DNA of 50,642 nucleotides, taken from Candidatus Moranbacteria bacterium RIFOXYA12_FULL_35_19 (lineage in GTDB: Bacteria; Patescibacteriota; Minisyncoccia; Moranbacterales; UBA2206). The DNA is taken from assembly GCA_001784805.1 (NCBI GenBank), contig MFSE01000020.1, positions 1 through 50,642 on the forward strand. The letters run 5' to 3'. A model generated the notes under the pieces. That model had not been told where the DNA came from and ran no database searches. It worked only from the letters and a program-made list of their open reading frames with translations. Positions 16,503 through 47,302 of this stretch are shown here, one piece after another. Positions within the stretch are counted from its first letter, which is position 1; each line of letters begins with the position of its first letter. A program made the position numbers and the translations under genes.

Positions 16503-16568
16503 TGTCATGCTGAATTTATTTCAGCATCTCGAAACTCTGTAAGATTCTGAAACAAGTTCAGAATGACA
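16503..16568. repeat. TGTCAT...ATGACA inverted-repeat element (CTGAA subtype)
   Basis: TGTCATGCTGAATTTATTTCAGCATC ... AGATTCTGAAACAAGTTCAGAATGACA. Confidence 0.8.
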
Positions 16569-19302: not shown

Positions 19303-20658
19303 ATGAGAAAAAAATATGACAAACTGAAAATAGGTATCAATGCGTCGTATCTTCGAAAGCCGTATACTGGCATTGGGCAAGTGACGCTTAATTTTCTAAA
19401 AAAATTAAGCAAGTTAAAAGTTGAAAGTGACCCGCCTGCCCGCTTCGCCAAAGCTTTAGCGAGGCGAGCCGGCGAGGCAGGAAAGTTAAAAGATATTGAA
19501 TTTATTTTATACTTGGAGGAAGAAATTCCAAAGGATCTTAAGCTTCCTAAAAATTTTACTAAAAAAATATTTTTGCCAATTTATAAGCGTGATGATTTGA
19601 TTCGAAAAATTTGGTGGGAAAAATTTCTTTTGCCCCGCCTTGTTAGAAAAGACGGTTGCGATGTTTTTGTCAGTATGTACCAATGTCCTACTGTCATTGC
19701 GAGGGAGTCTCGAGACGACCGTGGCAATCTCGTGCTTAATAAATTTGTGCTAAATATTGCGAGATTGCTTCGCTACGCTCGCAATGACAAAAATATAAAG
19801 CACATTATGATAGTGCATGATATTATTCCAAAATTATTTCCTAAGTATTTGGATAATGCAAGAAAAAAAGTATATTGGAAATTAACAGAATATGGGATAA
19901 AAAAGGCGGACAAGATTATCGCTGTTTCTAAAAGAACGGAAAAAGATTTGATTGAACATCTAAATATTGGTGCAGACAGAATTACGACGGAATATATTGA
20001 TGTGGACGAATGTTATAAGGTAGAGACGCAAAATTTTGCGTCTCTACGAGAGCGAAATATTTTAAAGAAATACAAATTAAATTCGGGATATATCTTAGCG
20101 GGTGGAGGATATGAAGTGCGAAAAAATGTCGAGGGTGTGGTGCGAGCATATAAATTATTATTAGAAAGAAACAAAAAAGAAAATTTTTTGTCAGATTTTC
20201 CGCGCCTTGCGATTTATGGAAAGGTTTTACCGGAAAACTTGAGTTTGGCAACGCCGATAGAAAAAATATTGAGAGAATTAAATTTGACGAAATATGTGAT
20301 TCTTTTAGGCGAAGTCCCGCAAAAAGACTTGCCGGCGCTGTTTAGTCATGCTATTATGTTTGCTTACCCTTCGTTTTATGAGGGTTTTGGTATGCAAATT
20401 CTCGAAGCCATGAGCGTAGGTACGCCCGTAGTCACTTCCAAAGTTTCATCACTGCCGGAAGTGGGTGGAGACAGCGTCCTATATTGCAACCCAGATGATA
20501 CAATAGATATCGCAATGGTTTTGAAAAATGTTTTAACTAATAAGGATTTACGAGAACAACTAAAATCACGAGGAATAGAAAGAGCCAAGCAATTTTCGTG
20601 GGAAAAATTTACGGAAAAAGTTTTGAATATAATCAGTTCCTACGAAAGTACAAAATAA
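19303..20658 (+). CDS. GT4 family glycosyltransferase with repeat-derived insertions
   Basis: YLRKPYTGIGQVTLNFL; HDIIPKLFPKYL; FYEGFGMQILEAMSVGTPVV; repeats at 19431, 19692 and 20020 read through in frame. Confidence 0.85.
   Translation: MRKKYDKLKIGINASYLRKPYTGIGQVTLNFLKKLSKLKVESDPPARFAKALARRAGEAGKLKDIEFILYLEEEIPKDLKLPKNFTKKIFLPIYKRDDLIRKIWWEKFLLPRLVRKDGCDVFVSMYQCPTVIARESRDDRGNLVLNKFVLNIARLLRYARNDKNIKHIMIVHDIIPKLFPKYLDNARKKVYWKLTEYGIKKADKIIAVSKRTEKDLIEHLNIGADRITTEYIDVDECYKVETQNFASLRERNILKKYKLNSGYILAGGGYEVRKNVEGVVRAYKLLLERNKKENFLSDFPRLAIYGKVLPENLSLATPIEKILRELNLTKYVILLGEVPQKDLPALFSHAIMFAYPSFYEGFGMQILEAMSVGTPVVTSKVSSLPEVGGDSVLYCNPDDTIDIAMVLKNVLTNKDLREQLKSRGIERAKQFSWEKFTEKVLNIISSYESTK
19431..19481. 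repeat. GC-rich 51-bp inverted repeat (CCCGCCTGCCCGCTTCGCC...GGCGAGGCAGG)
   Basis: Identical 51-bp copy at 42201-42251. Confidence 0.9.
19692..19789. repeat. TGTCAT...ATGACA element (TGCGAG subtype) inside a CDS
   Basis: TGTCATTGCGAG...GAGATTGCTTCGCTACGCTCGCAATGACA. Confidence 0.85.
20020..20047. repeat. Perfect 28-bp palindrome GTAGAGACGCAAAATTTTGCGTCTCTAC
   Basis: Second identical copy at 21583-21610; both translate VETQNFASLR. Confidence 0.95.
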
Positions 20659-30487: not shown

Positions 30488-30566
30488 CGTCATTCCCGCG
30501 TATGCGGGAATCTAGTGTAAAAAAGTAATGATTTAAGACTGGATTCCCGTATTCACGGGAATGACA
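30488..30566. repeat. GTCATTCCCGCG...CGGGAATGACA element
   Basis: CATTCCCGCGTATGCGGGAATCTAG...CTGGATTCCCGTATTCACGGGAATGACA. Confidence 0.85.
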
Positions 30567-32408: not shown

Positions 32409-32855
32409 TTACCTAAAACTCACTTTTTTATACTTCAATAAAAAATAAATCAAGAAATAAAAAGCCAAGGCGATTGCGCCGGCGATTATTATGAAGCCGA
32501 CACTTAAAGGTAGTAATAATTTCAAAATAATAGTTTCGGAAAAAAAATATTTTAGATCTGCCGAATAGCTTTGGTTGAAATTTTTAATAAGATCCTCTGA
32601 ATTTACTCCAAAAATTAGACATCCAAGCTTAGCGGCAAAGGGCATAATTAAAATTGATGTCCAAAAATTAGTCGCTAATACTCCGGCAACAGCGGATAAA
32701 CGGTTTACTCTTATTATCCAAGCGATTACGATGGCGGTCAAAATTCCGCCGGGAATAATTCCCAAAAAAATTCCCAAGGCCGCTCCCGCAGCAACTTTAT
32801 GTGGAGTGTCATCGATGAGAAAGAATTTTTTGAGAAAGGTTGTTAGTTTCTTCAT
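32409..32855 (-). CDS. DUF2062 family membrane protein (start corrected to Met42 of the ORF)
   Basis: DTPHKVAAGAALGIFLGIIPGG...TNFWTSILIMPFAAKLG; the upstream 41 residues are repeat translation (MLKQVQHD...). Confidence 0.85.
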   Translation of the reverse strand: MKKLTTFLKKFFLIDDTPHKVAAGAALGIFLGIIPGGILTAIVIAWIIRVNRLSAVAGVLATNFWTSILIMPFAAKLGCLIFGVNSEDLIKNFNQSYSADLKYFFSETIILKLLLPLSVGFIIIAGAIALAFYFLIYFLLKYKKVSFR

Positions 32856-32869
32856 ATGAATTGTTATGG

Positions 32870-32918
32870 AGATCCTGAAACCCGCCTGCCGGCGAGGCAC
32901 AGTAAATTCAGGATGACA
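32870..32918. repeat. Half-element of the TGTCAT family with nested GC-rich insertion
   Basis: AGATCCTGAAA[CCCGCCTGCCGGCGAGGCACAGTAA]ATTCAGGATGACA. Confidence 0.75.
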
Positions 32919-32953
32919 AAAACACAAATTCAGGATGATGAGATAAAAAAGAC

Positions 32954-33301
32954 TGTCATGCTGAACTTGTTTCAGCATCTAATAGTGTGTCATACAAATC
33001 TATCCAAGCTGGATTATTTTTAGTTATTAAGTTTATTTTCCAGTCCCTATGCCAATTTTTGAGTTGTTTTTCTCTGGATAAAGCAGAATAAACATCGGTT
33101 GTTTGTTCAAAATAAACTAACTTTGTTAAATTATATTTTTCAGAAAATCCTTTTACTAATTTATTTTTATGTTCGTAAATTCTTTTTGGTAAATTCCCAG
33201 TAAATCCAATATAAAGAACTTTATTTAATTTATTGGTAATAATATAAACGCAATATTGTTTCATAGGCTAATAGAGATCCTGAAACAAGTTCAGGATGAC
33301 A
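32954..33301 (-). mobile_element. Putative minimal mobile element: TGTCAT-family arms enclosing a GIY-YIG nuclease ORF
   Basis: Left arm TGTCATGCTGAACTTGTTTCAGCATCT (32954-32980), right arm AGATCCTGAAACAAGTTCAGGATGACA (33275-33301); arms match the solo element at 35335-35398. Confidence 0.6.
32956..33264 (-). CDS. GIY-YIG nuclease family protein (URI/UvrC N-term-like), 102 aa
   Basis: CVYIITNKLNKVLYIGFTGNLPKRIYEHKNKLVKGF...EKQLKNWHRDWKINLI; ends DAETSSA inside the left repeat arm. Confidence 0.92.
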   Translation of the reverse strand: MKQYCVYIITNKLNKVLYIGFTGNLPKRIYEHKNKLVKGFSEKYNLTKLVYFEQTTDVYSALSREKQLKNWHRDWKINLITKNNPAWIDLYDTLLDAETSSA

Positions 33302-33350
33302 GCTGAGGTTGAAGATCTTGAAAACTTGTTCAGGATGACAACTGAGGTTG

Positions 33351-34475
33351 TCATTTTTTCTTCACACTCAAACTTTTAGTTTCTTTGTCGAGAATTTTGG
33401 CTTTTTCAATTTCTTTTTTGGCATCAAATGGTAAGACGCCTAAAATATTTCGAAGTGCTATGCCATCTACTTTCAACACATCTTCCCAATGATCTAGTGG
33501 TTCCAAAACTTCGCGGAGTTTTTTCTCGTCATATTTATAAGTTTTACGAAGTGACCTCGCAATGACGCCTTGTGGCCCAAAAACTCGCTCCACGCCTTCT
33601 TGATCCATATAGCTCAAGATATCCTCTTGCAGTTTCGCCAAGCGATCTTTGGTAATATTTATCGCTGATTTTAGGTCAATATATTCTTCGATTGATTTGT
33701 TAATTTCCTCTGTGTCAATGTGTCGCAATTCCTTGAATTTATGTTTCCACATTGGGCAAAGATTTTGGTATCCGCACCAATCGCAAAGAGGGGACATCGT
33801 CGGTTCAAAATTGCCCGCTTCAATGACTTTTATCGTGTCTAAAAACAGTTGTTCACTTTTTTTCAATTGTTCCAATGTTCTTGTGGCGGAAAGCTTTACT
33901 CCATGCTTTAGGAAATATAGACTAACTTTTATTTTGTCTAAATTATTTATTTCTTTGGGATAATTTGAAAGAAAAGCTTGCAGATAAACAGAAAGCTGAA
34001 TGTCGTTGTCAACTTTTTCTTGATTAGGCATTTTCTTGGTAGTTTTATAGTCGATAATTTCAAAACCATCTTCAGTTTTATCTATGCGGTCAATGATGCC
34101 AGAAATAATATGCCGATCATTTTCAGAACCAATTTCAATTTGAAAACGGGATTCCAAGTTGATAATGTTGAAATCTGCCGGATTATTTTTTTGATAATAA
34201 TCTTGGATAATTTTCACTCCTTGAGAAAAAGCTGCCCGTTCTTCATCCGGCGAATCAAACACGGCCGGATTCCAAGAGTTGGAAAAATGTTCCATCGCTT
34301 GATCCAAGGTAGGGGAGAGAATTCCCGGTGTGTGGATAAATTTCATTGTTTCATGAATTGTCGAACCAAAAACCGCCTCCTTGGATTTAGGAACTTTGAT
34401 TCGATCAATATTTTGAAATTTATATTTCAGTGGACAATTCTGATAGGCATCAAAGGCCGAGTATGATATACGCAT
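33351..34475 (-). CDS. PD-(D/E)XK (RecB/Cas4-like) nuclease with Cys cluster
   Basis: SYSAFDAYQNCPLKYKF; GIIDRIDKTEDGFEIIDYKTTKK; QLSVYLQAF; CDWCGYQNLCPMWK. Confidence 0.88.
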   Translation of the reverse strand: MRISYSAFDAYQNCPLKYKFQNIDRIKVPKSKEAVFGSTIHETMKFIHTPGILSPTLDQAMEHFSNSWNPAVFDSPDEERAAFSQGVKIIQDYYQKNNPADFNIINLESRFQIEIGSENDRHIISGIIDRIDKTEDGFEIIDYKTTKKMPNQEKVDNDIQLSVYLQAFLSNYPKEINNLDKIKVSLYFLKHGVKLSATRTLEQLKKSEQLFLDTIKVIEAGNFEPTMSPLCDWCGYQNLCPMWKHKFKELRHIDTEEINKSIEEYIDLKSAINITKDRLAKLQEDILSYMDQEGVERVFGPQGVIARSLRKTYKYDEKKLREVLEPLDHWEDVLKVDGIALRNILGVLPFDAKKEIEKAKILDKETKSLSVKKK

Positions 34476-35334: not shown

Positions 35335-35398
35335 TGTCATGCTGAATTTATTTCAGCATCTATTTTAATAAAGATCCTGAAACGAGTTCAGGATGACA
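35335..35398. repeat. TGTCAT...ATGACA element (solo copy, CTGAA subtype)
   Basis: TGTCATGCTGAATTTATTTCAGCATCT-N10-AGATCCTGAAACGAGTTCAGGATGACA. Confidence 0.9.
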
Positions 35399-47232: not shown

Positions 47233-47302
47233 TGTCATACTGAACAAGTTTTCAGTATCTAAAAAATCGCAAAACAGATCCCGAAACAAGTTCGGGATGA
47301 CA
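47233..47302. repeat. TGTCAT...ATGACA element (CTGAA subtype)
   Basis: TGTCATACTGAACAAGTTTTCAGTATCT...AGATCCCGAAACAAGTTCGGGATGACA. Confidence 0.85.

Follow-up and report, generated by a model that had tools for sequence, protein, structure and literature searches.

What does a small GIY-YIG nuclease gene do between two inverted hairpins of a kind that also stands alone elsewhere in the same DNA? The question is raised by a locus in a stretch of 50,642 nucleotides (the window; contig C20 of G000, a 0.99-Mb genome), where the initial annotation had proposed an autonomous 348-bp mobile element encoding a homing-type nuclease, with solo hairpin pairs as its non-autonomous derivatives.

The nuclease gene and its hairpin arms

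The open reading frame (32956..33264, minus strand) encodes 102 aa and was assigned by its match to Pfam PF01541, residue conservation, dN/dS and fold. Downstream of it lies a plus-strand hairpin arm (32954..32980, TGTCATGCTGAACTTGTTTCAGCATCT; TGTC-[ATGCTGAA CTTGT TTCAGCAT]-CT), which holds the stop codon (TCA on the plus strand, 32956-32958) and encodes the last residues, DAETSSA. The second arm (33275..33301, minus strand, AGATCCTGAAACAAGTTCAGGATGACA; TGTC-[ATCCTGAA CTTGT TTCAGGAT]-CT) is inverted relative to the first and separated by 10 bp from the ATG at 33264. Folded as single-stranded DNA, each arm consists of an unpaired 4-nt TGTC tag, an 8-bp stem and a 5-nt loop. This anatomy, coordinates included, agrees with the annotation; the exact length of 348 bp does not, as the stretch common to two insertion sites is slightly longer and includes a terminator-like T-run (GTCTTTTTTAT; 32943..32953, minus strand) past the downstream arm, which a four-copy alignment placed inside the sequence common to different insertion sites. 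Two more hairpins of the same class lie close by. The first (32870..32918, minus strand) is direct with respect to the 33275-33301 arm and has 22 nt inserted into its loop region; its uninterrupted equivalent is present in G001 and G004. The second (33313..33340, minus strand) is degenerate and adjoins the element. The host neighbours are a PD-(D/E)XK nuclease gene on the left (33351..34475, minus strand; PF12705) and a DUF2062 gene on the right (32409..32855, minus strand; PF09835), and both served as anchors for the comparison of filled and empty sites. An Rfam scan of the locus hairpins returned no family at gathering score and no intron family in the locus, and a PADLOC defence-gene search gave no match.

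The protein matched PF01541, its sole Pfam domain, with 64 bits over the entire 78-position model (residues 3-78 of 102), and the catalytic residues Y7, Y18, G20, R28, H32, E65 and K69 are nearly invariant across 138 relatives. Among the element copies dN/dS was 0.02-0.06, indicating strong purifying selection on the protein. The best solved-fold matches to its confident AlphaFold2 model (pLDDT 89.6) were the UPF0213 protein BH0048 and the branched-DNA nuclease Slx1 (comparison structures PDB 1zg2 and 1ywl, and 6seh for eukaryotic Slx1), and the sequence profile concurred. By its catalytic residues and fold, the protein is a member of the Slx1/UPF0213 branch of the GIY-YIG superfamily. The annotated homing-type nuclease was thus not borne out, since the protein groups with GIY-YIG enzymes of the UPF0213/Slx1 type and not with I-TevI-type homing endonucleases. 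Beyond the single PF01541 domain no NUMOD or other C-terminal DNA-binding domain was found, and NCBIfam TIGR01453 scored far under its cut-off.

The arms are not private to the element but part of a known superfamily. Di Nocera et al. (2013) split REPs into GTAG-tagged, RAYT-associated ones and CGTC/TGTC-tagged ones, the latter with 8-9 bp stems starting with AT and 4-5 nt loops; families CGTC-1 to CGTC-4 include Neisseria dRS3 and Rickettsia conorii RPE-4/RPE-6, and CGTC REPs were left without a dedicated transposase, as an open question (PMC3733652). Almost 700 dRS3 copies are present in a meningococcal genome (PMC3898611). The arms fit the CGTC/TGTC-tagged definition. The TGTC tag is unpaired in the DNA folds, and the arms of relatives mostly have TGTCA or CGTCA. 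The 8-bp stems (ATGCTGAA, ATCCTGAA and ATTCCCGC) have A-T as first and second pairs and loops of 5, 5 and 4 nt, and the tails are CT or CC here and CCA in part of the relatives. Copy number is high, with 61 matches in the genome to the REP count pattern TGTCATNCN{12,14}GNATCY against 0 for the backward control (about 0 per genome in general), and solo inverted dimers occur. The locus is not a REPtron of the RAYT/GTAG type, its gene being a PF01541 GIY-YIG gene and its tag TGTC.

The window holds 13 hairpins, compared to about 1.8 in shuffled windows, and its solo content amounts to four inverted pairs and one single hairpin (TTGCGAG class; 19692..19730, plus strand). A REPIN-like pair between an Rrf2 gene and a cysteine desulfurase-like gene (35335..35398) was present as described, and in congeners it is missing or swapped for a different pair. 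The pair at 30488..30566, of the TTCCCGC class and with a 31-nt spacer similar to both ends of GIY-YIG element L016, is absent from all 6 congeneric genomes compared; the other two pairs lie at 16503..16568 and 47233..47302. Solo pairs are polymorphic between congeners at the same intergenic positions. Those of the TTCCCGC class have a common spacer (CTAGTG...GACTAG) matching the ends of L016, itself of the TTCCCGC class (p 0.0025 when the tips are kept constant). Internal-deletion derivatives should look like this, which supports the reading of solo elements as non-autonomous derivatives. Within the genome, (T)GTCAT arms are found only at the two subgroup-A genes, that of the window and L016; the other GIY-YIG genes have different inverted repeats or tRNA contexts, and the idea that all of them carry the same arms was rejected.

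Insertion sites, relatives and lateral spread

Synteny around the element extends to six further genomes of the genus. At the PD-(D/E)XK/DUF2062 site, the element is present in G000 and G001, solo hairpins only are found in G002, G004 and G006, and G003 has another GIY-YIG gene, ~50% identical, with TTGCGAG-class arms. At a second site, between tgt and a U32-peptidase gene, the same element (96-97% aa identity) occupies G002 and G005 and is absent from G000, G001, G003, G004 and G006, with a solo pair in G003. The comparison of empty with filled orthologous loci, which had been suggested with the annotation, gave two unrelated sites, each with the element in some species and with a solo repeat or nothing in others, and the synteny is not that of a housekeeping gene, as the window's site is filled in 2 of 7 congeners, taken by another GIY-YIG gene in 1, and the element lies elsewhere in 2. 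Aligned copies are bounded: their common sequence starts at the first base of one arm and extends to the T-run past the other, and outside these limits they diverge. Present as one unit at non-homologous sites, with both filled and empty alleles, it has the distribution of an autonomous transposable element. Additional, directly oriented hairpins are found at the filled sites.

In all six pairs compared, dS was lower for the element (0.23-0.46) than for the adjacent host gene (0.62-1.00), and the closest copies, in G001 and G002 (dS 0.23), occupy different sites. The pattern of presence and absence at the two sites could in part come from ancestral copies with differential loss, but the dS values argue against it. 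The comparative data show that the element is mobile and has spread laterally between genomes.

The closest named protein relatives, with 96-97% identity, are from Candidatus Moranbacteria UBA2206 and UBA4824, and the 80 closest relatives on contigs of one genome per species are from Patescibacteria, Gastranaerophilales, Bacteroidota, Pseudomonadota, Nitrospirota, Planctomycetota, Elusimicrobiota and others. When the 150 nt upstream and the 150 nt downstream of these genes were scored for inverted repeats, the median was 20, compared to 8.5 for control ORFs of the same loci, and 81% of the 80 reached a score of at least 14, compared to 4% of the control ORFs. We further scored 138 non-identical genes, comprising relatives from many phyla and further members from the order, for hairpins no more than 200 nt from the gene, defined as GTC, then a stem that starts with AY and pairs perfectly or with one mismatch, then C. 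Hairpins were found on both sides of 101 of the 138 (73%) and of 1 of 202 control ORFs at the same loci (0.5%; Fisher p 1e-53), with the tags outward on both sides in 76 of the 101. Close homologs therefore do carry the arms, and unrelated genes in the same loci are rarely flanked by them. Repeat-encoded C-termini also recur, the stop codon lying at the identical arm offset in 21 of the 138. About a quarter of the relatives, more often diverged ones, lack hairpins on one or both sides, and among more divergent genes from viral contigs they occur on both sides of only 10 of the 28 whose flanks are complete. The two-sided arms, their rarity at control ORFs and the lack of housekeeping-like synteny, all three points on which the annotation could have failed by its own tests, support the annotated autonomous mobile element with a nuclease.

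Across these relatives the stems differ greatly in sequence but keep their pairing, and the feet TGTCAY...RTCY are retained. Arm class co-varies with clade, requiring 25 changes on the protein tree compared to 55 +/- 3 for shuffled labels, and 10 compared to 16.5 within the order alone. In one genome (G058) an unusual GCATTTAGTGC stem-loop is present both in the arm of the GIY-YIG gene (L189) and in solo REPs. Phylum changes on the protein tree number 34, the minimum possible being 19.

Most of the genomes are draft metagenome assemblies, and the pattern recurs in closed isolate genomes. In two records of Neisseria gonorrhoeae (L246 and L247) the gene lies within a dRS3 array; both are filed as plasmids and look misfiled, being 2.17 Mb long, the size of a whole chromosome. 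Related hairpins stand on one or both sides of the gene in Sinorhizobium meliloti (CCTC variant), Shinella, Rhizobium, Aeromonas and others. On plasmid AZO_p3 of Azospirillum lipoferum 4B (L254), a GIY-YIG gene with CGTC hairpins occupies the gap from sufB to sufC and splits an otherwise compact gene cluster. A. lipoferum and S. meliloti are both among the CGTC-bearing species listed in 2013 (PMC3733652). On Planktothrix agardhii plasmid p1 (L248), a subgroup-A gene has an MmeI-type restriction gene on one side and, on the other, the drmA gene of a DISARM system. Phages were rejected as the vehicle, with 0 matches in 50,697 phage records and 35 in 2.9 million viral contigs.

REP load and the candidate mobiliser

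A subgroup-A gene (best E <=1e-14) is present in 58 of 131 genomes of the order, and the median REP load is 27.5 with the gene and 2 without it (about 14-fold, p 1.4e-12). In each of the eight families compared, carriers had the higher median, and permutation within genera gave p 0.0009. A second sample of 285 genomes, drawn independently from the rest of the phylum, had median REP numbers of 18 with the gene and 0 without it, and for at least 5 REPs the odds ratio was 42 (p 4e-32). These comparative data show that REP load depends on the presence of the gene, a correlation that by itself gives no direction. REP-rich genomes without the gene exist (e.g. G044, G160 and G280), and some carriers are nearly devoid of the scanned pattern. 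In one genome with 117 matching REPs (G303), five subgroup-A genes lie within ~27 kb (contig C21, 25011-52089), possibly a recent burst.

We consider it likely that the locus is an autonomous element of ~350 bp, in which a hairpin-bounded, Slx1-like GIY-YIG nuclease mobilises CGTC-type REPs, the solo pairs being its non-autonomous derivatives or relatives. The nuclease would, in the manner in which Slx1 recognises a branch, recognise the foot (tag and stem base) of hairpins extruded in single-stranded or cruciform DNA and cut there. On repair of the break the unit would be copied or inserted at another location, in many cases one where a hairpin of this kind is already present, and solo inverted pairs (CGTC-type REPs, REPINs) would be mobilised in trans by the same enzyme. 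Insertion at existing hairpins would explain why the same intergenic positions are used repeatedly and why filled sites have additional direct hairpins next to them. We infer from the comparisons, rather than from the protein in action, that the protein itself cuts hairpins, as well as the position of the cut and the route of copying. Since the pairing of gene and hairpins recurs in many bacterial phyla, the nuclease is probably the enzyme that had been missing for one of the most abundant small-repeat families of bacterial genomes.

Phages are known to encode free-standing homing endonucleases of the GIY-YIG type, and the gene may instead be such a parasite, for which REPs made by another system serve as landing sites and which spreads by break repair and creates none. 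The extra direct hairpins at filled sites and the solo hairpins in empty alleles are as expected for insertion into a REP. However, many REP-rich genomes should then be free of the gene, yet 45 of the 60 genomes of the order with at least 10 REPs carry it, and only 11 genomes without it reach 10 REPs in the 285-genome set. Moreover, no alternative enzyme tracks REP load, and the affinity of the protein to Slx1/UPF0213 also argues against a homing parasite, which we regard as unlikely. The main point dividing it from mobilisation by the nuclease is whether the same reaction makes new REPs at virgin sites.

That a RAYT moves the hairpins while the GIY-YIG gene hitch-hikes inside a REPIN has in its favour that RAYTs move GTAG-type REPs and that the genome encodes one IS200-like and four RAYT-like Y1 transposases (the latter L020-L023, 223-248 aa). 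However, none of these loci has TGTCAT arms, and no CGTC repeat flanked any tyrosine transposase in the 2013 survey (PMC3733652). When presence of the GIY-YIG gene was allowed for, Y1 transposases (IS200/RAYT) did not influence REP load in the 131 genomes (by Y1 status, 27 vs 30 with the gene and 2 vs 1 without it), and hitch-hiking leaves the co-variation of arm class and protein unexplained. RAYTs were therefore rejected as the mobiliser, and we hold this explanation to be very improbable.

The 2006 superfamily study of Dunin-Horkawicz derived selfish GIY-YIG groups from the UvrC lineage alone and saw prokaryotic Slx1-like proteins as mostly vertical, with a repair role predicted in work cited there (PMC1564403), a placement that our data contradict for the window's subgroup. 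A housekeeping repair gene, namely a prokaryotic Slx1 ortholog lying by chance in repeat-rich intergenic DNA, would suit that placement but hardly deserves credence given the patchy multi-copy distribution, the different sites in sister species, the cross-phylum relatives, the two-sided hairpins at 73% of genes vs 0.5% of control ORFs and the lack of conserved synteny.

A second subgroup and comparison with known systems

A second GIY-YIG subgroup (~84 aa; L009, L010, L013, L015 and L216-L245) is often found at tRNA genes, with 14 of 35 members within 150 bp of one, compared to 3 of 138 in the window's subgroup (p 7e-9). L009 is flanked on one side by a 22-nt duplicate of the 5' end of a tRNA-Pro gene and on the other by the complete tRNA, the C-terminus of L013 (GKVAEWSKAAPC) is encoded by a tRNA-Ser gene, and the N-terminus of L015 is read from a tRNA-Gln gene. 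At about 1840-1970 of the L013 locus (contig C10 of the same genome as the window) there is a second tRNA-Ser copy whose 5' half is interrupted by an inserted hairpin (CTTGCCCCGCCAAAGGCGGGGTGAAG), and ARAGORN does not call this copy as a tRNA. Other members (L014, L017, L221, L223, L225, L228, L230, L231, L233, L235, L237 and L242) have inverted repeats of other kinds at their boundaries (TTCACCC.GTTAAATA, ATGCCCGGTAGTGAAA, TTTACCCCGTTAGA and TTTATCCCCCCTCACTTTATTTTA), often with the stop codon in the arm. Inverted-repeat scores of at least 15 were obtained for 47% of the subgroup and 2% of control ORFs, and members with other repeats are possibly parallel element families. More broadly, we lean towards a class of transposable elements built on Slx1-like GIY-YIG nucleases, as opposed to DDE, HUH, tyrosine or serine enzymes or reverse transcriptases, which would be the source of CGTC REPs (dRS3, RPE-4/6) across bacteria, the second subgroup having turned in parallel to other inverted repeats and tRNA genes as its sites.

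CGTC-type REPs are among the commonest small bacterial repeats, and the survey that defined them left their mobiliser open. A partner gene that lies inside the dimer, tracks REP load over 416 genomes and co-varies with the repeat sequence brings this question within reach of an experiment on a single protein and a single oligonucleotide. If the proposal is right, small GIY-YIG proteins annotated as repair or hypothetical proteins would be recast as mobile-element genes, and transposition would have a route via a structure-selective hydrolytic nuclease. Open-access literature searched for GIY-YIG together with REP, REPIN, MITE, dRS3 or RPE contained no paper linking them, and searches by repeat sequence returned unrelated papers only; an earlier description elsewhere is possible.

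The element shares with MITEs that have an autonomous parent the short non-autonomous inverted-repeat units with the ends of a longer coding copy; however, it has no DDE-type transposase, and no target-site duplication was resolved here, the empty alleles being too diverged around the site. Like free-standing homing endonucleases such as the phage Seg proteins, it is a small GIY-YIG gene that seemingly lands at a target kept in empty alleles, but it has no NUMOD or other DNA-binding domain, brings its own inverted hairpins and has many solo copies. With UPF0213 and prokaryotic Slx1-like proteins it has in common the best profile and fold matches and the single small domain, and Slx1 cuts branched DNA. 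Different from these proteins, which were published as predicted repair proteins, the window's subgroup behaves as a mobile-element gene and has an additional conserved C-terminal segment, W.RxWK..LI...NP.W.DL. REPtrons (GTAG REPs/REPINs with RAYT/TnpA-REP) likewise combine an enzyme gene flanked by hairpins that are also present as solo dimers with partner-specific hairpin classes, but they rely on an HUH tyrosine transposase and a GTAG tag, whereas the element described here has a hydrolytic GIY-YIG nuclease and a YGTC tag. Its arms share with the CGTC REPs the CGTC/TGTC tag, the 8-bp stem opening with A-T, the 4-5 nt loop, a short unpaired tail, here CT or CC, and the mostly intergenic inverted dimers. 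Different from the 2013 description, in which these repeats had no dedicated transposase, a specific nuclease gene is found here inside the dimer.
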